A stretch of DNA of 64,000 bases from Fibrobacter sp. UWB13 (lineage in GTDB: Bacteria; Fibrobacterota; Fibrobacteria; Fibrobacterales; Fibrobacteraceae), in contig NZ_FXAX01000002.1 of NCBI RefSeq assembly GCF_900177805.1, positions 310,001-374,000 on the forward strand. The letters are read 5' to 3'. The notes below the pieces were generated by a model. It did no database searches. It was not told the origin of the DNA and saw only the letters and a program-made list of their open reading frames with translations. The position numbers and the translations under genes are program-made. Shown here in pieces: positions 4,301-56,853 of the stretch. Position 1 is the stretch's first letter. Each line of letters opens with the position of its first letter.

Positions 4301-4903
4301 CTTGACCGCTTTATCAGCCTCTTCATACAAATCATGAACCGCCATTGCGATTTTTCTGTAAATGCCATCGCCCGTCAACTTTTCGAGAATCGCAGCGCGT
4401 TCATTTTCGTTGCACTTCAGGAACTTGTTGAACTCGCCCTGAGCAAGCATCATCGACTTGGTAAATTGATCAAAATCAAGACCAATGATAGGCGCAATCG
4501 CGGCTTCAATCGCATTCTGCCTTGCACAAGTTGTTACAACGCTCTGAGTCGTTTCATTTGTCAATTTCCATTCAGCCTGTTGAAGCGCATCCGACTTCGG
4601 TTTACGATTCTGTTCCCAATGAGCTGAATACACAATACCATTACACTCGAAAGTCACCTTTGCGGAGCACTTTTTGGTGCCATAAGTCATCACCTCGTTT
4701 GAGCCACTATTAATCGTAGAGATTCGAGGAGTCCTTCCATAAAGACCAAGGCAGATGGCGTCAAGAATGGACGTCTTGCCGGAACCCGTCGGTCCGACAA
4801 TGCAATACATGCTGCTTTTGGCGAAATCCGGGCTTTCAAAATCAACAACCCATTCTCCCGCAAGGGAATTCACATTGCAAAATTCAAGCTTTTTGATTTT
4901 CAT
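1373..4903 (-). CDS. sbcC: SbcC, ATPase subunit of the SbcCD nuclease
   Basis: 1176-residue SMC/Rad50-family ATPase that partners SbcD in opening DNA hairpins and processing DNA ends. Walker A GPTGSGKTSILDAI lies near residue 40. Long heptad-rich coiled coils flank a zinc hook, CPVCG near residue 568. The C-terminal lobe has the ABC signature NISGGEGF followed by Walker B SLFLDEGFGTLD. The length is somewhat above the roughly 1050 residues of E. coli SbcC, mostly through extra coiled coil. The start is ATGAAAATCAAAAAG, 12 nt after the sbcD stop, so the two subunits are cotranscribed and probably made together. Assignment is firm. Confidence 0.97.
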   Translation of the reverse strand: MKIKKLEFCNVNSLAGEWVVDFESPDFAKSSMYCIVGPTGSGKTSILDAICLGLYGRTPRISTINSGSNEVMTYGTKKCSAKVTFECNGIVYSAHWEQNRKPKSDALQQAEWKLTNETTQSVVTTCARQNAIEAAIAPIIGLDFDQFTKSMMLAQGEFNKFLKCNENERAAILEKLTGDGIYRKIAMAVHDLYEEADKAVKALEAKLGDVSLLSEEELVELNAKIAEASSLKEKLAQDEERFRNICTWYENFHGIESHLKTAKEQLETANREKAGFEPNREKLERALRAQEVETSYAEYHSVRDSLSQMKNQLAECQSKLPDAVANLEKASTDNREKHEALEKCKADYSENEKLWERVSSLDGDIRNTRTQLNNLQTEIAKFVAEIDSTQGKIKATQGRISENEQKLNSAQNYVAANEKDGTIDGMLSLLKSNVTEWKTENAAVIAESKKLAAKQSSLQEFDAACEQQKQDLRVLQEYLTAHQADADLVNVLPEMNGDVSDAERHHKESLRLQGEMQSKQNQVAELTSEREQVQAGLKKLLDEKESIIQQDIPVVVAELRRTLKSGEPCPVCGSRDHLSCEEHATVENGAESLNDFATKLRKISGEMDQTQRKLDGLATRQQNIENLLDETAQKQKGEVDAESAALKLLNEKIEPWQMTATLETARSVLQNLQTLKTTYLQKKENADSLQNKVNNAAVDRANLVSDLNVTDDTLKKSQGKVQELSQKIESALATWFSNVRMEEVDALIAGLEKKNTSWKKNQDDMLKAERDLEKDLASVAQFEENLKQVQSRRDGMSAQFETSKQGLEKNEELRKDLFGEKSVDDERNKARSLRDTAERLANEARGVEQQKRDAKMALDNSIADLNRRIAETEPKLSENQKQFLENLAAKNFANEEEFKAAKLPEMERKSLQQTQKRVDDNLTAAQTSVKNFNDQLAAHLQKRNFEDSEESATQNREAAKTKLAECNLNFGTWTEQKRNDDLKRQQFADLQTQLTTLQEKRGDWLQMQCWFNGNNARTGNGDVFVKFIQSITLRNLLKIANGYLHDMFPRYEMVAAKETLDIMLIDHDNSDAIRPIKNISGGEGFIVSLSLALGISTIASQNVSIDSLFLDEGFGTLDTKMLQETVVVLQKMQQERGKLLGVITHLDLVKNELQTHIEVTPRGGRSFLSGAGVSNG

Positions 4904-4915
4904 TTTTTACACCCC

Positions 4916-6226
4916 TTATGCGTTTTCGTGAGCCTTGACTACAGCTTCGTTAAACAAGTCAATAAACTTGTTATATACCGTTTCGACTTCTTTCGCCTCA
5001 GATTCCGATTCGAGCTTTTTGCCCATATTCTTTGCAATCAGCATCCTAAAATAATCCTTATCTGTATATTGTTTTGTCGACACAACCGCATCATCAATTC
5101 CAGACACTCCCTTCTTCAGAATGTCTCGCGAGAGGCGGTGACGCTTGACTACAAAACGCTTGCTCAACTCTTCCGCTGCAAGCGCCGCACTCAAATCAAC
5201 AAATTCGCCCGTAGTCAAAAGCAAATCGACATACGTTTCCATCGGATTTGCCATTAACTCTTTATCCAAATCCCGCAATTTCTTTCGAAGTGTTGCAAGA
5301 TCCCCCTTGAACTGTTCGTAACGCACCGACTTTTCGACTTCAATCTGCTCCAAAACAGGTTCAGCACCAGATTCCACATCAACAGCAAATACACGGCGCT
5401 TATAGTTGGCTTCGTCAAAGCCCATCACAAAGGGAGAGCCCGAATACCACACTTTCGAACTGCCCGCCACGTTTGTCGCATAATGGATATGTCCCAGCGC
5501 CACATAATCAAATCCGGTCGGGAAAACGGAAATATCCACATTGCCAAGCGTCCCGACAACTTCACGAACACCATTGTCCATGGCGCTATCAGCCTCAGCC
5601 AACGTCGAATCTCTACCCGAAAGACCATTGGCGTACAGATGCCCGGTCGCAATAATCGGAATTTTACGGTCGCCACGCAATTCAACAGCATAGCGATACA
5701 CATCCGCATAAAGGCGCTTCAGCAAATCATCATCCGAAGCAGATTCGCTTTCAGAACTGTCGCCAGAGTCCTTTTTATCATTCTTGTAGAAGTGTTCCAG
5801 TTCCAAATCTCGCATGAAAGGCACGGCACAGCAAATGCCGATGACATTGCCATCGCCATCCTTGAGTTCCACCACCAAATCTTCAACTTTGCGACCGTTA
5901 ATCGATCCCACAACCTTAATATTCAATGCATCCAAAAGGTCTGCAGGCGCATCGAGCAGAACACCCGAATCATGGTTTCCGCCCACAATAACGATATTTG
6001 AACATTTCGTTGCCAAAAGCGAGGCAAGGAACCTGAAATACATCTTCCTTGCAATAACAGTAGGGCTAACCACATCAAAAACATCGCCTGCAATGACGAG
6101 AGTCTGCGCTCCAACACGTTCAATTTCGGATTTCAGCCAAGCAAGAAAGGATTCCGTTTCCTTCGTGCGGTCAATGTCATGCATCATATTGCCAAGATGC
6201 CAGTCTGCGGTATGGATCAATTTCAT
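4916..6226 (-). CDS. sbcD: SbcD, Mre11-type nuclease subunit of SbcCD
   Basis: 436-residue calcineurin-like metallophosphoesterase. The metal-binding motifs appear in order: HTADWHLG (residues 4-11), VIAGDVFD (about 45), GGNHDSG (about 82), ATGHLY (about 195) and LGHIHY (about 247). With SbcC it forms an ATP-dependent double-strand exonuclease and hairpin endonuclease. An acidic Ser/Asp/Glu-rich insertion near residues 150-170 is unusual for the family and probably a surface loop. AGAGG precedes the ATG by about 7 nt. It is the first gene of an sbcD-sbcC(-channel) transcription unit, with an AT-rich promoter region upstream containing a TATATT-like -10 around 6250 on the minus strand. Confidence 0.96.
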   Translation of the reverse strand: MKLIHTADWHLGNMMHDIDRTKETESFLAWLKSEIERVGAQTLVIAGDVFDVVSPTVIARKMYFRFLASLLATKCSNIVIVGGNHDSGVLLDAPADLLDALNIKVVGSINGRKVEDLVVELKDGDGNVIGICCAVPFMRDLELEHFYKNDKKDSGDSSESESASDDDLLKRLYADVYRYAVELRGDRKIPIIATGHLYANGLSGRDSTLAEADSAMDNGVREVVGTLGNVDISVFPTGFDYVALGHIHYATNVAGSSKVWYSGSPFVMGFDEANYKRRVFAVDVESGAEPVLEQIEVEKSVRYEQFKGDLATLRKKLRDLDKELMANPMETYVDLLLTTGEFVDLSAALAAEELSKRFVVKRHRLSRDILKKGVSGIDDAVVSTKQYTDKDYFRMLIAKNMGKKLESESEAKEVETVYNKFIDLFNEAVVKAHENA

Positions 6227-47772: not shown

Positions 47773-50157
47773 ATGAAATCCAAATTACTCTTAACAACGT
47801 CAATTTTCGCAATCTTCACACTCAACGGCTGTCTCGACGAAGTGACCGAAACGAGCGCTCCGGACTTGTCCGAACTCGCCTGCAAAACGGAACCCCTAGA
47901 CGATGACAGCGGACTCAAGATTATTTGCGGAGGCGATTCCGTGGGTGTCGTTTTGAACGGCAAAGACGGTAAAGATGGTACCGATGGTAAAGACGGTGAA
48001 AAAGGTAAGGATGGAAAATCTGGTACCGACGGTAAAAATGGCAAGGATGGAACAAACGGAAAAGATGGAACTTCCTGCTACGTCACTGAAAACGAAGAAA
48101 TAAATGGCTACGATGTGTTCTGTGGTGACGAAAAGATCGGCTCCATCGTAAACGGCAAGGACGGTGCCGATGGAAAAGACGGTAAAGACGGTAAGGATGG
48201 CGATAAAGGCGACAACGGTGATGACGGCAAAGATGGTAAGGATGGAACGTCCTGCATTGTTAAAGAAAACACAGAAATAAACGGCTACGACGTTATTTGC
48301 GCTGGCGAGAAAATCGGCGAATTGCGCAACGGCAAAGACGGTAAGGATGGTAACGACGGTAAAGACGGCGCGGCTGTAGGTTCTTGCACCGTCGTCGTGA
48401 ACGATGACATCGATGGCTACGATGTCGTATGCGGCGGCGAAAAGGTCGGCGAACTTCGCAATGGCGCCAAAGGTGCTGACGGTAAGAACGGTGAAAACGG
48501 TAAAGACGGTAACGATGGTTCCTCCTGCACCGTCGTCGTGAACGATGACATCGATGGCTACGATGTCATCTGCAGCAACGAAAAGGTCGGCGAACTCCGC
48601 AACGGCGCCAAAGGTGCTGACGGTAAGAACGGTGAAAATGGTAAAGACGGTAACGATGGTTCCTCCTGCACGGTCGTAGTAAATGACGACATCAACGGTT
48701 ACGATGTCATCTGCGGAGATGAAAAGGTCGGCGAACTCCGAAACGGCGCCAAAGGCGCTGACGGAAAGAACGGTGAAAATGGTAAAGACGGTAACGATGG
48801 TTCCTCCTGCACAGTCGTAGTAAACGACGATATCAATGGTTACGATGTTATCTGCGGAGATGAAAAGGTCGGCGAACTCCGAAACGGCGCCAAAGGCGCT
48901 GACGGAAAGAACGGTGAAAACGGTAAGGATGGTAACGACGGTTCCTCCTGCACGGTCGTAGTAAATGACGACATCAACGGTTACGATGTCATCTGCGGAG
49001 ATGAAAAGGTCGGCGAACTCCGAAACGGCGCCAAAGGCGCTGACGGAAAGAACGGTGAAAACGGTAAGGATGGTAACGACGGTTCTTCTTGCACGGTCGT
49101 AGTAAATGACGGCATCAACGGTTACGATGTCATCTGCGGAGATGAAAAGGTCGGCGAGCTCCGCAATGGCGCCAAAGGTGCTGATGGCAAGAACGGTGAA
49201 AACGGTAAAGATGGCAACGACGGTTCATCTTGCACAGTCGTAGTAAACGACGATATCAATGGTTACGATGTTATCTGCGGCAACGAAAAAGTTGGTGAAC
49301 TCCACAACGGCAAGGACGGCGAAGACGCAAAACCTATCGAAACTTTGAGCAACGCTTGCAATACTCTGCGCTCCACAACAGACAAGTTCTCTTCAATGTA
49401 CGACGTTTTCTATTGCCTCCGCTCCAACGAAAAAGTTGCATTCATTCTCCGCCACGCCGCCCGCGATAGAAATAACTATGGTACAAGCGGCAGCCTCAAT
49501 GACATCGGCAAAGAACAATCTGCACAAGTCGGCAAAAAGCTCAAAGAACTCAACATCGGCGATTTCTTCTACATGCACACAAACGTAGTTCGCACCGTAG
49601 AAACAGCAATGATCATTTCTAACAACAAAGGTCAAACAACCGGCAGCGAAAACGAATGGAAAGACAACATAGCCGATGACTACCACATAGAGAACATGGA
49701 CCTTCTTGAATCTTGGTACATAAAAGACGAAAGCAAAAAAAACGCCTGCCAAGGCAAAAATAGCTGGGGATGGAGCATCTATTCAAAAGCAGCCTATGAA
49801 GAATACGACAAAGAAAATAACGACGACAGCAAAAACAAAGACGCATGCGAAGCCGCCTTATACAACATCAAAAACAGAACTCAGGAATTCATCAACACAT
49901 ACTTCACATACGATAAAATGCACAAAATGACCATTGCCATCTCGCACGACCAATTCCTCGTGCCTTTCGTCATCGCCATCAGCAATAAACAAATTCACGA
50001 CGAAAACAACTACACGCTACAATTCCACAAGCACGAAAACGACTTCAACTATTGGATAAACTACCTAACGGGCATCGCCATCATCACTGGTCCTGATGAA
50101 GAAACCACAGTCATCCCAGTCATGGCATTAGACGACGGATTCCTGCGCACCTACTAA
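47773..50157 (+). CDS. Lipoprotein with ten cystine/collagen-like modules and a C-terminal histidine-phosphatase domain
   Basis: 794 residues; GGGAG 8 nt before the ATG. Lipobox LNGC. Ten modules follow, each a ~25-residue Cys-pair unit (S-C-x-V-x-N-x-x-I-x-G-Y-D-V-x-C-G-x-E-K-x-G) joined by Gly-x-x stretches such as GKDGKDGTDGKDG. From 48382 the modules are exactly 47 residues (141 bp) long. After residue ~520 a histidine-phosphatase fold appears: ILRHAARDR (catalytic His), NVVRTVETAMII (second Arg) and AISHDQFLVPF (second His). The canonical RHG reads RHA. This suggests an enzyme displayed on a long stalk from the outer membrane. The substrate is unknown. I know of no described protein with this architecture. 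Confidence 0.93.
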   Translation: MKSKLLLTTSIFAIFTLNGCLDEVTETSAPDLSELACKTEPLDDDSGLKIICGGDSVGVVLNGKDGKDGTDGKDGEKGKDGKSGTDGKNGKDGTNGKDGTSCYVTENEEINGYDVFCGDEKIGSIVNGKDGADGKDGKDGKDGDKGDNGDDGKDGKDGTSCIVKENTEINGYDVICAGEKIGELRNGKDGKDGNDGKDGAAVGSCTVVVNDDIDGYDVVCGGEKVGELRNGAKGADGKNGENGKDGNDGSSCTVVVNDDIDGYDVICSNEKVGELRNGAKGADGKNGENGKDGNDGSSCTVVVNDDINGYDVICGDEKVGELRNGAKGADGKNGENGKDGNDGSSCTVVVNDDINGYDVICGDEKVGELRNGAKGADGKNGENGKDGNDGSSCTVVVNDDINGYDVICGDEKVGELRNGAKGADGKNGENGKDGNDGSSCTVVVNDGINGYDVICGDEKVGELRNGAKGADGKNGENGKDGNDGSSCTVVVNDDINGYDVICGNEKVGELHNGKDGEDAKPIETLSNACNTLRSTTDKFSSMYDVFYCLRSNEKVAFILRHAARDRNNYGTSGSLNDIGKEQSAQVGKKLKELNIGDFFYMHTNVVRTVETAMIISNNKGQTTGSENEWKDNIADDYHIENMDLLESWYIKDESKKNACQGKNSWGWSIYSKAAYEEYDKENNDDSKNKDACEAALYNIKNRTQEFINTYFTYDKMHKMTIAISHDQFLVPFVIAISNKQIHDENNYTLQFHKHENDFNYWINYLTGIAIITGPDEETTVIPVMALDDGFLRTY
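48382..49310 (+). repeat. Tandem 141-bp coding repeat, six full units and one partial
   Basis: Units begin at 48382, 48523, 48664, 48805, 48946, 49087 and 49228 (partial). The period is exactly 141 bp. The third to fifth units (48664-49086) encode the same protein sequence and differ by few silent bases, which indicates recent expansion or gene conversion. Confidence 0.95.
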
Positions 50158-50180
50158 TCTATTCAAACAGCAAAAGCTTC

Positions 50181-50204
50181 AAAGCCCCCTCCCGGGGGCT
50201 TTTT
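50181..50204 (+). terminator. Rho-independent terminator
   Basis: AAGCCCCC-TCCC-GGGGGCTT stem followed by TTT, 24 nt after the stop of the collagen-like lipoprotein gene. Confidence 0.85.
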
Positions 50205-50302
50205 CATATATTCAGCATCAAAGCATTCCCCAGAAAGAAATTGAAGAATAGCAAGTCCTTTTTTATATTTGTAAAAATATTTTTTAATCAATGGAGAAAA
50301 AA

Positions 50303-50779
50303 ATGAAGCAAGCCTTTTTGGCAACATTAATCTTTGTCACCACGTTCCTCTTTTCAGGATGCACTCATCAATACGCATTAAAAGAAAACTGGGTAGATGA
50401 TGACGACTTAATATCCATCGTTAGCGCTCCCGATATCAACAAGTGGTCAAAGCAGTTCGGCACCCCCGTATTCACAGAAATTAGACAAGATACAGCAGAA
50501 TTCATCTACAACTACAAGCCACACCTATACAAAAGCGTCGAAGACAACAGAATGTTCAAGCCAAACAACAAAGACCGTGTAGACTTGTGGAACGACCGCA
50601 CAGAATATGTTGGCATTGTTGTTTATCAAGATAAGATTATTCAAGTTCACCCTCGCCCTGACTATGCAGCAACAAAAGAAAAAATAGAAGCCACCGAATC
50701 ATCTTCTTGGATTATTGGACTCATCGGCGGAATTATCGGAACTGCGGCGCTCGTTATTACAATAGTGGAGAACAATTAA
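50303..50779 (+). CDS. Hypothetical lipoprotein with C-terminal membrane segment, 158 residues
   Basis: Start at ATG 50303 with GGAG 6 nt upstream; the ATG at 50291 overlaps this ribosome-binding site and is rejected. Signal peptide with lipobox FSGC. The mature part is acidic then mixed, with KPHLYKSVEDNRMF and a final hydrophobic span (SWIIGLIGGIIGTAALVITI). Having both a lipid anchor and a C-terminal span is unusual. The next gene follows after 5 nt and has the same kind of C-terminal span, so the two are a likely operon and partner pair. No family recognised. Confidence 0.8.
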   Translation: MKQAFLATLIFVTTFLFSGCTHQYALKENWVDDDDLISIVSAPDINKWSKQFGTPVFTEIRQDTAEFIYNYKPHLYKSVEDNRMFKPNNKDRVDLWNDRTEYVGIVVYQDKIIQVHPRPDYAATKEKIEATESSSWIIGLIGGIIGTAALVITIVENN

Positions 50780-50784
50780 ATTCT

Positions 50785-51177
50785 ATGAAATTTTTTTTCA
50801 TCATCTTATTTTGCGCAATCGCTTTATTTGCTCAAGACGACACCTGCCAAAAACTCTGTTTAAAATGTCAAGAAGATTCTTCAGAAGTATGCCTTGAGAT
50901 AAAGCAAAGTTGTGAATGTACCTCTTCAAGCGAAGCATCAGCAACAACCAGCGCTCCTCTTTCCAAAGTGGATTTCGGACAGTTTGGATCCAGTAGCAAT
51001 CAAAAATTCGAACCTATTACAAAAGTAGACTTCGGAAGCAAAGGAGACGACACTCACACGGCAGTTTGGCAAGAAAATGGATCGTATGAAATTCAAAACA
51101 AAAACAAAACTTGGATTATCATCGGAAGTATAGTTCTAACAATACTCACTGCAACAATTTTAGGAAATGTGCTATAG
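50785..51177 (+). CDS. Small exported Cys-rich protein with C-terminal membrane segment, 130 residues
   Basis: From ATG 50785, MKFFFIILFCAIALFAQ is a signal peptide. The mature N-terminus is Cys-rich (CQKLCLKCQEDS, VCLEIKQSCEC). Two copies of a KVDFG motif follow (LSKVDFGQFG and ITKVDFGSKG), and the protein ends in TWIIIGSIVLTILTATIL, a single span. The longer frame from 50707 is read from inside the upstream gene and rejected. Five nt after the previous lipoprotein gene, with a strong terminator after it. Function unknown. Confidence 0.8.
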   Translation: MKFFFIILFCAIALFAQDDTCQKLCLKCQEDSSEVCLEIKQSCECTSSSEASATTSAPLSKVDFGQFGSSSNQKFEPITKVDFGSKGDDTHTAVWQENGSYEIQNKNKTWIIIGSIVLTILTATILGNVL

Positions 51178-51187
51178 TTCTTAATAG

Positions 51188-51218
51188 CAAAACAACGCCC
51201 CGCAAGGCGTTGTTTTTT
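51188..51218 (+). terminator. Rho-independent terminator
   Basis: AACAACGCC/GGCGTTGTT 9-bp stem (51191-51199, 51206-51214), 6-nt loop, followed by TTTTG. Confidence 0.88.
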
Positions 51219-51246
51219 GTTAATGTCAAAATTCCAAAACACAATT

Positions 51247-51272
51247 AAAGCCGAGCTTAAGCCCGGCTTTAA
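51247..51272 (-). terminator. Terminator for the moxR/lipoprotein unit
   Basis: AAAGCCGAGC-ttaa-GCCCGGCTTT, a 10-bp stem with one mismatch and A/T tails on both sides. It lies 27 nt beyond the minus-strand stop at 51299. Confidence 0.65.
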
Positions 51273-51298
51273 TAACGAATTCAATACCGCATTGTTTT

Positions 51299-51595
51299 TT
51301 ATTCTACGTATAACATCGTCTTGTTAGTTTGCTTAACATCGCAATACTGATGATCGTAATAGTAGTAGGTAAAATTACCTAGCAAACCATCCACAAACAA
51401 TGGGAAAAAGAACATCGCATCGCCTGCAATAGCCCACCCTCTAACGCCTCTTCTATAACAGCTTGCTTTGGGATCATTTGATTCCAGCATCTTATTGTAC
51501 TCAGCCTTCGATACATCAGGCTTAGTCACCGGAATGATCATTGCGCAAGACGTCAAGAAAAGCGCCAAAACAAGAAGAGGGCACATGCTCTTCAT
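51299..51595 (-). CDS. Small lipoprotein, possibly YceK-like, 98 residues
   Basis: Signal peptide with lipobox LTSC. The segment GWAIAGDAMFFFPLFVDGLLG loosely resembles the aspartate/leucine/proline core of YceK-type (DUF1375) small lipoproteins; the match is weak and the family label is tentative. Two further cysteines (SCYRRG, YCDVKQ) could pair. It starts 2 nt after the moxR stop in the same direction, so it is cotranscribed with moxR and the terminator at 51247 ends the unit. Confidence 0.75.
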   Translation of the reverse strand: MKSMCPLLVLALFLTSCAMIIPVTKPDVSKAEYNKMLESNDPKASCYRRGVRGWAIAGDAMFFFPLFVDGLLGNFTYYYYDHQYCDVKQTNKTMLYVE

Positions 51596-51597
51596 TT

Positions 51598-52581
51598 TTA
51601 CGGCACCTCAACAGAGTCCAAAATCTTCTGCACGACGGTTTCGGCAGTGACTTCTTCCGCTTCAGCTTCGTAGCTCAGAATCACACGGTGGCGAAGCACT
51701 TCCATCGCAACAGCCTTCACATCTTCCGGCGTCACGTAGGCACGGCCCTGGATAAACGCATGAGCCTTCGAAGCCTGTGCAAGACCGATAGAAGCACGCG
51801 GAGAAGCGCCAACTTCCACAAAGCCCACCAAGTCACTACGCTTGAAGCTACCTGGATCACGCGTAGCCAAGACCAAGTTCACGATGTATTCGCGCACACG
51901 TTCGTCCACATAAACCTGCTTCACAAGCTCACGAGCCTTCAAGATATCTTCCTTCGTCGCGACCGCATTCGGCTGACGCAGCCCCGCACCCGAAACCGCA
52001 TCGAGAATCTTCATTTCGTCAGCCTTATTCGGATAGCTAACCTTCACCTTCAAGAGGAAACGGTCCACCTGAGCTTCCGGCAGCGGATACGTACCTTCCT
52101 GTTCAATCGGGTTTTGCGTGGCAAGTACCAAGAACGGTTCGTCCAGTTTGAACGTTTCGTCGCCAATCGTGATGTGGCGTTCCTGCATGGCTTCGAGCAA
52201 GGCACTCTGCACCTTCGACGGAGCACGGTTAATTTCATCAGCAAGTACAAGGTTCGTAAAAAGCGGGCCCTTGCGCGTTTCGAACTTCGCTTCGCGGGCG
52301 TTATAAATCGTTGTACCGAGCAAATCTGCCGGCAGCAAATCAGGAGTAAACTGGATGCGCTTGAAGTCGAGCGAAACAGCATCGGCAAAAGCCTTCACCG
52401 CAGTCGTCTTGGCCAAGCCCGGGAGGCCTTCCAAAAGCACGTGGCCATCTGCCAAAATACCCGTCAGAATGCTTTCGACCATAGCCTTCTGACCAATCAC
52501 CGTATCTTCAACTTCACGCAGCAAGTTCATGCAAAAAGAACTCTGCTGTTTCACCTTTTCCGAAAGTTCCTGAATATCCAT
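51598..52581 (-). CDS. MoxR-family AAA+ ATPase
   Basis: 327 residues. Walker A EGLPGLAKTTAVKAFA (about 55-70), Walker B NLVLADEINRAPSKVQSALL, sensor 1 LVLATQNPIEQEGTYPLPEA, arginine finger region QVDRFLLKV and the C-terminal lid GASPRASIGL. MoxR ATPases work with DUF58 and vWA proteins in chaperone-like maturation of enzymes or envelope complexes. AGAGG precedes the ATG. The usual neighbours are absent here: the DUF58 gene is at 30223 and a BatD-like gene at 57945. Confidence 0.95.
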   Translation of the reverse strand: MDIQELSEKVKQQSSFCMNLLREVEDTVIGQKAMVESILTGILADGHVLLEGLPGLAKTTAVKAFADAVSLDFKRIQFTPDLLPADLLGTTIYNAREAKFETRKGPLFTNLVLADEINRAPSKVQSALLEAMQERHITIGDETFKLDEPFLVLATQNPIEQEGTYPLPEAQVDRFLLKVKVSYPNKADEMKILDAVSGAGLRQPNAVATKEDILKARELVKQVYVDERVREYIVNLVLATRDPGSFKRSDLVGFVEVGASPRASIGLAQASKAHAFIQGRAYVTPEDVKAVAMEVLRHRVILSYEAEAEEVTAETVVQKILDSVEVP

Positions 52582-54322: not shown

Positions 54323-54643
54323 TTACTTTTTCTTTTTCGCAGCGGGCAGTTCTGGAATCATGGCGTCGAGCAAACGCACAAGCAAGCCTTTATCTGCAAT
54401 TTGTTCGGCAGTGACACGCAACATCGGCTTTGCGCCATCGTAGGGCAACTGCAATTTTGCATCCGGGAGCACAGCCTTCGCTGCAGCCACAGGCTTCACG
54501 AGCAAGCGATCATCGTAAATCCCGCCAAAAATTTTTCCATCAGCATAAAGGATATACTCGCCCATCATCTTGCGGGTGGTCACGCGCAGCTCCCCCTTGA
54601 ACTGAGCCAAGACATAATCACGGAACTTTTCAGAACTCGGCAT
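54323..54643 (-). CDS. TfoX/Sxy N-terminal-domain protein
   Basis: 106 residues. Matches the TfoX_N fold: FRDYVLAQFKG, VTTRKMMGEYILYADGKIFGGIYDDRLLVK and AKLQLPYDGAKPMLRV, ending in a Lys-rich tail. In gamma-proteobacteria TfoX/Sxy co-activates competence genes; stand-alone N-terminal-domain proteins are widespread and mostly uncharacterised. Its start overlaps the 3' end of the upstream lipoprotein gene by 14 nt. Confidence 0.9.
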   Translation of the reverse strand: MPSSEKFRDYVLAQFKGELRVTTRKMMGEYILYADGKIFGGIYDDRLLVKPVAAAKAVLPDAKLQLPYDGAKPMLRVTAEQIADKGLLVRLLDAMIPELPAAKKKK

Positions 54644-55655
54644 TTTTATTCTTCACCAAATTAACGATACAGTCTCTAAATTCACCAGCATTACCAATAT
54701 AGTAGCTATCCGCACCATAATACAAAAGCGAATCCTTGCTATTGTAGGTGGAAGCAAGATCCATCAGACCCGCGTTTTCTGCCTTACAAATTTCTGGAGT
54801 CATTTTGGAATCAGACATATAATCCAAAACGCAAACCCCATTGTCAGATTTCAAAGTCGCACCAACTTCTACATAACTACCACGGTTATACTGCAAACGC
54901 TTCGCCTTGGTAAACTCGACTTCAAAATTCTGCCCACGAATCACAAAAGAAATATGCGTTTTATCTTTACTGTTAATAACAACATTCCTTTTTTGTGCAT
55001 GGGCTTCAAAATTTTCACTTTTCCAGAATGCCGTCCACGGGAAAACTTCATATTGCGATGTAATAATCACATCAAAGATATCTTCCATAAAAGAAGACCC
55101 CGTATAATCATCATATTCATCTTCTGTCGGGGCATATATATCAATCGCATTTCCGTTCAAATCAGTCACTGACGCAAAAAGAGTATCCTGCGTAAAATCA
55201 AAGTATGTGATTGTATTTTTTAGCCAGCCGTTCAGTTCGCTTGCATCACGGCAATCAAGAGAATTGCTTTCTTGAACATACTTACAGTTTATCATTTTCC
55301 ATTTGTTCTTAATCTGTCCATTTTTACCACCAACAAATATTTGACCATACGTTCTAACATCTTCATCGCTATAGAAAATAACAAGCGTATCGCCTCTAAA
55401 ATCATACACCCTTTCAATATGTTGTGTATCCACCATCGTCACAAATTCATATTTATCATCGTCAACTTTACAAACATCATAACTATGAACTTCATAAGTC
55501 GAAAACTTCCGATTCGCTTCGTCCAAAATCAGCGGGTACTTAATCCCCACAAAATTTTCCCTTGAATTATTGGAGACCGGGTTAGACTCGTTACTTTCAC
55601 TGCAAGCAAGCATCATAGCACAACAAAGCAGACCAGCAAGACCTAAAAATTTCAT
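54630..55655 (-). CDS. Hypothetical lipoprotein, 341 residues
   Basis: Signal peptide with lipobox MLAC followed by a Ser/Asn-rich spacer (SESNESNPVSNNS). The mature protein is rich in Tyr, Asp and aromatic beta strands (TLVIFYSDEDVRTYG, YVEVGATLKSDNGVCV), with several Cys (CKVDDDK, NCKYV, LDCRD, ICKAEN, DCIVNL). No family recognised; the style is that of the many Fibrobacter cell-surface lipoproteins. AAGGAG lies 7-12 nt before the ATG. It is transcribed away from the palindrome array at 55724-55925 and overlaps tfoX at its 3' end. Confidence 0.82.
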   Translation of the reverse strand: MKFLGLAGLLCCAMMLACSESNESNPVSNNSRENFVGIKYPLILDEANRKFSTYEVHSYDVCKVDDDKYEFVTMVDTQHIERVYDFRGDTLVIFYSDEDVRTYGQIFVGGKNGQIKNKWKMINCKYVQESNSLDCRDASELNGWLKNTITYFDFTQDTLFASVTDLNGNAIDIYAPTEDEYDDYTGSSFMEDIFDVIITSQYEVFPWTAFWKSENFEAHAQKRNVVINSKDKTHISFVIRGQNFEVEFTKAKRLQYNRGSYVEVGATLKSDNGVCVLDYMSDSKMTPEICKAENAGLMDLASTYNSKDSLLYYGADSYYIGNAGEFRDCIVNLVKNKNAEF

Positions 55656-55992
55656 AAAAAACTCCTTCCAAATCGTTTACTGCTAATAATACATTATTTC
55701 AGCATCCATTTTTAGCAGTCGTGCATATAAAAATTCATTTTCCATCTTTTTATATGTATTTTTCTACTTTATCCAAAACATTTTTATAATTCCAGCTAGT
55801 TTTCATACATATAAAACTTTCCATTTAGCCAATTTTATATGCATCGCACACAATTTTTTTCCGAAAAAGGTTAGCAGAGAAGCAAATTATACATATAAAA
55901 AATGTCCTTTGAGCTTTTTTATATGCACACACCCTCAAATTTCGGCACTTAAACAATCCTATTTGCATAATTTGTTGTATATTATATGCCGC
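55656..55992. promoter_or_regulatory. Divergent AT-rich region with three evenly spaced palindromes
   Basis: Three inverted repeats, each CATATAAAA - 15 or 16 nt - TTTTATATG, lie at 55724-55756, 55808-55841 and 55892-55925. Left arms start exactly 84 bp apart (55724, 55808, 55892), about eight helical turns. The loops and the ~50-bp intervals are not conserved. The array sits between divergent genes (minus 55655, plus 55993), so it is a candidate multi-site operator or a nucleoid-protein site. Confidence 0.6.
55978..55983 (+). promoter_or_regulatory. -10 hexamer TATATT, 9 nt before the ATG at 55993
   Basis: TTGTATATT followed by nine bases and ATG, with no Shine-Dalgarno sequence. Leader predicted to be 0-3 nt. 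Confidence 0.45.
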
Positions 55993-56853
55993 ATGACAAC
56001 AAAATTCACTGAAGAATATCTCAAGGACTATAAAGAACAAATTCGCAAGTTGCCGCTTGACGAACTCTATGAAGTTTTAGATATCATCAGCAAAGACGAT
56101 TCTCCAGAACGACAGAACATTGTCAAAGCGCGCATCGAAGAACTAGAAAATAAAGAAGAAATAGAATCATATTTCGCACCCAGCGCGACATTTTCCGAGC
56201 AATTCCAAGACGAAACCGAACGTTCCATCGAGCAAACTTTTGAACCATATCCTAGCTTAAACGACGACCAAATCTCAATTCCAGGCTCTGATCAAGCAGA
56301 CACCGAAAGCGACGACTCATCAAATCACAAAATAACGCAAGAAGAAATAGACAAATACAACAACACGCAACCGGTACCTGATACTAACGGACTCATCTCA
56401 TTCCTCTTCTTAATGGCAATCGGTTTAGGTATGGTCCTTTTGCCTCTAATCATCATCTCGATAAATGAAAACCAACACCCAAGTTATCACAATTTTAAAA
56501 TAACAACTTTTTTGCCGTTTCTCAAATATGTTCCTATAACCACTATCTTTATTGTCAACTGCATAACAGCAAAGGAAAGAATCCGAGACTACTGGCTAAA
56601 CCATCTTAAATTAGCACTCAGCATCGCATCATTTCTCGCCGTAAATGCAGTCATCACATTCATCACAGGAACATACAGCGGAATCTACCGCAGTTGCTCA
56701 GGAAGGCCCGCCTATATGATAGCCGCAGGGGTTCTCTTTTTCTCGATAACATTTATCGTGAACGCATTCTTGCCCATCAGCCAAAGATACCGTCCAAAAA
56801 ACGGGCTTACGCTAGCAGCGCTCGCCCTCGTCCTTGAAACAGCCCTCCGATAG
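55993..56853 (+). CDS. Four-span membrane protein with acidic cytoplasmic N-terminus, 286 residues
   Basis: From ATG 55993 (MTTKFTEEYLKDYKEQI). The longer frame from 55909 begins inside the palindrome array and is rejected. Residues 1-130 are hydrophilic and acidic, with a helical start (LPLDELYEVLDIISKDD) and a probably disordered Ser/Asp/Glu stretch. Hydrophobic segments lie at about 135-157, 175-195, 210-230 and 250-275, the last two separated by GTYSGIYRSCSGRP. No family recognised. It is convergent with the BatD-like gene, whose stop is 6 nt away. Confidence 0.75.
   Translation: MTTKFTEEYLKDYKEQIRKLPLDELYEVLDIISKDDSPERQNIVKARIEELENKEEIESYFAPSATFSEQFQDETERSIEQTFEPYPSLNDDQISIPGSDQADTESDDSSNHKITQEEIDKYNNTQPVPDTNGLISFLFLMAIGLGMVLLPLIIISINENQHPSYHNFKITTFLPFLKYVPITTIFIVNCITAKERIRDYWLNHLKLALSIASFLAVNAVITFITGTYSGIYRSCSGRPAYMIAAGVLFFSITFIVNAFLPISQRYRPKNGLTLAALALVLETALR

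Follow-up and report, generated by a model that had tools for sequence, protein, structure and literature searches.

A putative gene-less docking array of an unnamed two-domain, nuclease-like protein family in Fibrobacter sp. UWB13

In the specificity subunits of type I restriction systems, target-recognition domains are swapped. TIGR-Tas systems combine a Nop-domain protein with a guide-RNA array that has palindromic arms and a variable middle of similar size. In REPIN-RAYT (REPtron) systems, dispersed REP palindromes are accompanied by a cognate HUH transposase gene, and the specificities of the two co-evolve, as described in two reports (PMC3116915, PMC8266576). The array of three palindromes described here, from Fibrobacter sp. 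UWB13, is probably a solo (gene-less) docking array of an unnamed two-domain protein family, as judged from sequence comparison across genomes. No account of such a system of arrays and nuclease-like proteins was found in a full-text literature search, most subscription journals and preprints lying outside it. Genomes are referred to by G numbers, G000 being the UWB13 genome and the others comparison genomes, and loci by L numbers. Class A denotes the CATATAA half-site and class B the TGCTACTAA half-site.

The window array and related arrays in Fibrobacter

The window, the whole 64-kb stretch of DNA analysed, was scanned for the motif and contains three CATATAAAA-N15/16-TTTTATATG palindromes of 33–34 bp. 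The features discussed below are as follows.

50158–51597, no strand: slot beside moxR, holding an array and a nuclease-like gene in G071, G058, G010 and G069
51598–52581, minus strand: gene which we take to be moxR-like, the syntenic anchor of the slot (ORF list, synteny)
54630–55655, minus strand: left neighbour, a lipoprotein-like protein with no Pfam family
55700–55942, no strand: segment absent at the orthologous place in G005 (empty site, L019), placed by eye with approximate boundaries
55724–55756, no strand: site 1, CATATAAAA-N15-TTTTATATG, 33 bp
55766–55772, plus strand: ACTTTAT, a second motif lying 9 bp beyond site 1 and equally offset in other arrays of CATATAA and TGCTACTAA type
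55808–55841, no strand: site 2, CATATAAAA-N16-TTTTATATG, 34 bp
55892–55925, no strand: site 3, CATATAAAA-N16-TTTTATATG, 34 bp
about 55993–56853, plus strand: right neighbour, a membrane protein with no Pfam family

The arms are invariant 9-mers and the loops differ. The starts (55724, 55808 and 55892) are exactly 84 bp apart; the centre spacings are unequal (84.5 and 84.0 bp) because site 1 is 33 bp long and sites 2 and 3 are 34 bp. An earlier note on this DNA, made from the letters alone, had described three evenly spaced palindromes with identical arms and variable loops, and all three were recovered as exact matches. The genome-wide search it had proposed returned only these three exact copies in the 3.8-Mb UWB13 genome, so the scatter at random spacing that it had named as evidence against its reading is not seen. 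Zero matches occurred in 100 dinucleotide-preserving shuffles of the window. A detector for repeated-palindrome arrays found no further array in the window, whatever the arms, and nothing in three block-shuffled windows. A tandem repeat was rejected as the identity of the array. So was a CRISPR array, as the note had also concluded: only the arms are common to the sites, loops and spacers differ, and spacing varies, overall from about 52 to 180 bp.

The array lies between the divergent genes 54630–55655 (minus) and about 55993–56853 (plus). In G005, the stretch around 55700–55942 is gone between the same two genes, and ATTT stands at both edges of the missing segment (55696–55699 and 55939–55942). 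Two side observations concern the surrounding genes. In the membrane protein encoded at 55993–56853, the N-terminal ~55 residues form an unnamed domain that recurs in otherwise different Fibrobacter proteins. The lipoprotein encoded at window positions 47773–50157 carries GKDG repeats of collagen-like character, among them a 141-bp unit present 6.6 times.

The exact window motif was found in 10 of 80 Fibrobacter genomes, and a CATATAA site profile had at least one match in 42 of the 80 (72 strand matches in G071, 39 in G061, and 34 each in G008 and G058). Nearly every CATATAA locus carries three or four sites. The centre spacings of 62 neighbouring pairs fell at 63, 73–75, 82.5–85.5, 94–96, 126.5 and 137 bp, and the best-fitting period was 10.5 bp with a vector strength of 0.936 (62 spacings from 27 loci, orthologous arrays included). 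The placement of the sites on one helix face, which the note had read from the window alone, is upheld by this wider set, and the dimer-like symmetry of the sites is likewise supported. The middle of CATATAA-type sites is unconstrained except for an A/T-rich centre; sequence comparison shows that CATATAA arrays have fixed arms and drifting loops and spacers.

Other half-sites occur in similar arrangements. A sequence-blind detector also found TGCTAC[TA]AA arrays in G000 and G046, in threes, with spacings of 83–86 and 95 bp; G000 has 18 exact TGCTAC[TA]AA sites at 8 places. After rplT, a CATATAA array is present in G071 and G008, a remnant in G046, a three-site ACCCATAA array in G030, and nothing in several Fibrobacter species. 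Separately, downstream of rplT in G001, G005, G046, G072 and G023 (L134, L135, L136, L141 and L143), an insert is followed by a second rplT 3' end, as though an element inserted itself at the end of rplT and rebuilt it. In G043, a genome without the family gene described below, two class-B sites stand 176 bp apart (L233 6524–6735), off the 10.5-bp phase, possibly by decay.

A second motif, A[ACG]TTT[AG]T, occurs at fixed offsets from the sites in both main array types (class A and class B). At offsets picked after looking at the spacers, it was present in ~84-bp spacers at 6/20 (class A; shuffled mean 0.10) and 5/6 (the other main type), and in ~95-bp spacers of the two types at 6/12 and 7/8, with shuffled means of 0.06–0.13 throughout. 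It may be the site of a host factor.

The nuclease-like protein family beside the arrays

Among the matches listed by a pattern scan of public genomes, arrays of several sites were also found in Treponema and in Lachnospiraceae (Pseudobutyrivibrio, Agathobacter and Butyrivibrio), and the same family gene recurred beside arrays there and beside some Fibrobacter arrays. It encodes a protein of 270–290 aa with a C-terminal domain of apparent PD-(D/E)XK type. The family was found in 49 of 80 Fibrobacter genomes and, at any match length, in 54 of 167 genomes of the phylum. No meaningful Pfam or NCBIfam family was detected in the 29 members scanned, and a search of the PDB by sequence gave nothing convincing. 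Four plasmid records match in the nuclease domain only, 10 viral loci match the C-terminal half only, and three unannotated faecal phage records match, one with 75% coverage and 35% identity.

Arrays were scored at thresholds of at least 24 and at least 12. An array stood beside the family gene at 64 of 82 loci under the first threshold and at 80 of 82 under the second, compared with 0/150 and 1/150 random windows and with 0/82 shuffled flanks of the same loci at either one. Thirteen of the 82 loci had been reached via their arrays; the other 69, reached via protein search, gave 55/69 and 67/69. Eighteen loci scored below 24, and L436 and L449 showed no array. Family-gene arrays contain 2–6 palindromic sites of about 33–42 bp each, spaced by multiples of about 10.5 bp; periodicity in the gene-linked spacings is strongest at 10.5 bp (vector strength 0.934, n = 163). 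Fifty-seven of 64 arrays lay 5' of the family gene, with a median distance to the gene start of 168 bp (57 arrays). In Treponema and Bacillota, an array was present at 17 of 30 gene loci versus 0/30 after shuffling, on the 5' side in all 17, where these 30 loci partly overlap the 82-locus set and the 14 genomes behind them had been chosen for carrying arrays (12 with full-length members, G178 with a weak partial match and G180 with none). Spacings outside Fibrobacter had a strength of 0.936 at 10.5 bp (n = 60). In Pseudobutyrivibrio, near-identical 74-bp array units occur in 7 copies (L292 728–1205) and 5 copies (L256 6435–6765), a recent tandem expansion unlike the divergent spacers elsewhere.

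Several other candidates were set aside. Regulator paralogues near four arrays at three places, which we take to be TIGR02147/DUF4423 proteins, were dropped as binders, the nuclease-like family being the general neighbour. Pattern matches with a 40-bp period in Bacteroidota proved different, consisting of TTATATG-N6-CATATAA boxes that immediately precede a short HTH gene, presumably a HipB-like antitoxin (L283 about 5050–5190, L339 about 4550–4690, L239 about 1740–1890); they probably reflect antitoxin autoregulation. Viral contigs gave 0 matches to the class-B pattern, and the 38 viral loci matching the class-A array pattern, none with two full sites within 200 bp among those checked, were taken as chance.

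Half-sites vary between arrays, species and family members. Protein similarity and half-site similarity were correlated over 65 pairs (Mantel r 0.41, 0/999 permutations). In 29 proteins of three half-site classes, assigned from the fetched loci as a subset of listed family members, the 25 columns best tracking the half-site all fell within residues 1–62, and residues 44, 46 and 47, in or next to a predicted beta-hairpin, fully separated the three classes. This residue test ignores phylogeny, which is addressed by trees of the two domains: half-site class changes 10 times on the C-terminal tree and 3 times on the N-terminal tree, the minimum possible being 2. Identity between L397 and L400 is 97% over the C-terminal part and 50% over the N-terminal part; the former has a TACCTATAA array and the latter a TTACATACT-type array, a pattern that looks like a swapped recognition domain. 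By these comparisons, it is the N-terminal ~110 residues, and not the C-terminal domain of nuclease type, that the half-site is shown to follow. In a second fold model (pLDDT 72), no match reached a Z of 8. The best structural matches of the N-terminal part were coiled coils; the thought that the N-terminal part might be an AP2-like integrase-arm domain comes from the predicted strand and helix order only.

Residues E168, D199, E214 and H215 (L082 numbering) are conserved in 79 aligned proteins with the sole exception of L082 itself. This CATATAA-type protein of G071 (L082 6398–7213) has N at the PD-motif Asp (D199) kept in the other 78. Despite the Asp-to-Asn change, G071 has the most CATATAA sites, which suggests that cleavage may not be important in that genome.

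Solo arrays, the orphan in UWB13 and their possible roles

Solo arrays were counted with thresholds set as an excess beyond the gene's own array. At least 6 TACCTATAA sites were present in 7/9 genomes with the matching gene versus 1/71 others, at least 5 TTACATACT sites in 7/12 versus 2/68, and at least 10 CATATAA profile matches in 8/9 versus 7/71. The TACCTATAA and TTACATACT patterns read backwards had no match in Fibrobacter genomes. As far as genome sequences can tell, solo arrays are thus shown to be enriched in genomes holding a gene of the matching half-site. They also occur without a known matching gene, in G054 and G023 (TTACATACT) and in G011 (TACCTATAA), and G043 and G075 have TGCTACTAA arrays and no family member.

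The UWB13 genome contains one family member, of TGCTACTAA type (L220 5485–6318), adjoining a TGCTACTAA array. No CATATAA-type gene was found in G000 or G008, both rated 100% complete, although CATATAA arrays are present. The window array is thus an orphan; in relatives, the CATATAA-type gene sits by moxR, about 4 kb away. The moxR slot of G000 (50158–51597) holds neither a family gene nor an array, and the syntenic slot genes of four genomes go with four different half-sites: TGCATATAA in G071, GGGGCATAT in G058, TTTACATAC in G010 and TACCTATAA in G069. Between G000 and G071, each of the 42 arm letters is conserved, against 78% identity in loops and spacers. The CATATAA-type gene may therefore have disappeared only recently, or else some other factor preserves the arms and the array still matters.

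Gene linkage, the tracking of the half-site by the N-terminal domain and the enrichment of solo arrays together indicate that the nuclease-like protein very probably docks at the arrays. A dimer would bind each palindrome: the beta-hairpin of its N-terminal domain would read one half-site, and the minor groove would be contacted at the A/T-rich interior of the site. Dimers on the same face of the helix, three or more of them, would join into one complex. The array beside a family gene would autoregulate that gene, and solo arrays would be dispersed docking places, the window array having been left behind when the CATATAA-type gene was lost from the moxR slot. As likely binder, the dimeric regulator or looping protein suggested in the note gives way to a two-domain nuclease-like protein, not an ordinary regulator, whose matching gene is missing from G000.

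The broader proposal has, in our estimate, an even chance of being correct. It envisages a genome system of two parts, present in gut bacteria from no fewer than three phyla, in which a nuclease-fold protein would assemble on phased arrays via an exchangeable DNA-reading domain, with one array by its own gene, up to a dozen or more dispersed, and the whole set re-specified on a domain swap. It joins dispersed bacterial repeats of an unexplained class to an unnamed protein family, and the small swappable domain, in which three residues separate three half-site classes, offers a DNA-recognition code. If the binding is true, the system is a testable model of joint specificity change in a protein and many chromosomal sites.

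For the role of the solo arrays, non-autonomous dispersal of the REPIN-RAYT kind comes just short of an even chance, chromosomal stations or operators kept by selection are a real but less than even prospect, and a role other than these two is unlikely. Dispersal in its specific form, in which arrays are REPIN-like mobile units that the nuclease-like protein would copy into further intergenic positions, can be entertained tentatively. It would account for presence and absence at the window locus (empty in G005) and after rplT, for intergenic placement without an orientation rule, and for a copy number tied to the matching gene. Spacers of the G000 TGCTACTAA arrays also resemble one another (mean similarity 0.443 versus 0.333 shuffled; 7/16 pairs above the 99th percentile), but CATATAA spacers are near background (0.365 versus 0.336 in G071, 3/78 pairs above the 99th percentile; 3/14 in G061), and the ACTTTRT motif may account for part of the similarity. 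Spacings moreover differ between copies, and no target-site duplication was established.

Somewhat more doubtful, though possible, is that the arrays are chromosome-organising stations or a regulon, that is, fixed docking places under selection that are re-specified when the specificity of the protein changes. The arms are more constant than the spacers, and different half-sites do occupy shared places: class B in G072 and class T in G018 have both neighbours in common, class A in G071, G008 and G066 and class C in G018 share one adjacent gene, and the position after rplT carries ACCCATAA in G030 versus CATATAA in G071 and G008. Such places are few among 87 loci, however, near the expectation from shared permissive gaps; in many genomes there are none, and sites after rplT were lost in G046.

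A conventional operator, on which a dimeric or looping regulator bound to three sites controls the two divergent genes, is distinctly unlikely. The divergent neighbours, symmetric sites and helical phasing at the window agree with this reading, which was that of the note, but it fails as a general explanation. Array contexts were tandem in 20, convergent in 17 and divergent in 12 of 49 array calls (orthologous arrays counted; the divergent window case was scored tandem, the gene caller having missed its right-hand gene), so the arrays do not regularly precede a regulated start. From one locus to the next, the neighbouring genes mostly bear no relation to each other, and the protein family tracked by the half-sites is an unrelated one.

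That the sites are RNA hairpins or a guide array of the TIGR-Tas kind is highly improbable: the palindromic arms and variable middle of similar size recall the TIGR-Tas layout, and the N-terminal part has a weak helical match to TasH (Z 7.4, 65 residues), but unrelated coiled coils score level with TasH, which does not appear in the list of the second model, the 29 members scanned gave no meaningful Pfam match, there is no Rfam match, and neither arms nor loop show covariation. No Nop family was among the Pfam matches of these 29 members. From the missing covariation the palindromes are taken to be DNA sites rather than RNA hairpins, and the 10.5-bp phasing, a property of DNA, argues for their acting as duplex.

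Comparison with known systems

In the docking protein proposed here, the C-terminal ~110 residues match the PD-(D/E)XK domains of the large candidate defence proteins PDC-S68 and HEAT_CxxC_PDDEXK from PADLOC (E down to 1.9e-24 for PDC-S68), but PDC-S68 profiles are about 1200 aa long and only their last ~115 positions match the family. By predicted structure (pLDDT 78; best Foldseek E 0.028), the C-terminal domain weakly resembles the folds of I-Bth0305I (Z 8.4, 90 residues), Bax1 (8.2, 99), TnsA (7.9, 114) and Vsr (6.8, 100). The N-terminal domain of the family is different from theirs, and no intron, helicase or transposon partner was noticed at the inspected family loci.

As in type I restriction specificity subunits, a recognition domain is swapped on a constant partner domain. 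The present family differs in being a single small protein with chromosomal site arrays and half-sites about 20 bp apart, and no methylase was noticed next to family genes.

The nearest known analogue is REPIN-RAYT, whose palindromes are processed as single-stranded hairpins. The likeness to the features described in the two reports (PMC3116915, PMC8266576) lies in dispersed extragenic palindromes, a nuclease-type gene linked to its own palindromes, and co-evolving specificity. Here, by contrast, Pfam and NCBIfam scans of 29 members gave no HUH/Y1 protein, and PD-(D/E)XK models match instead; the sites form helically phased double-strand arrays of 2–6 with arms fixed and middle and spacers free; and the half-site appears to be set by a swappable N-terminal domain.
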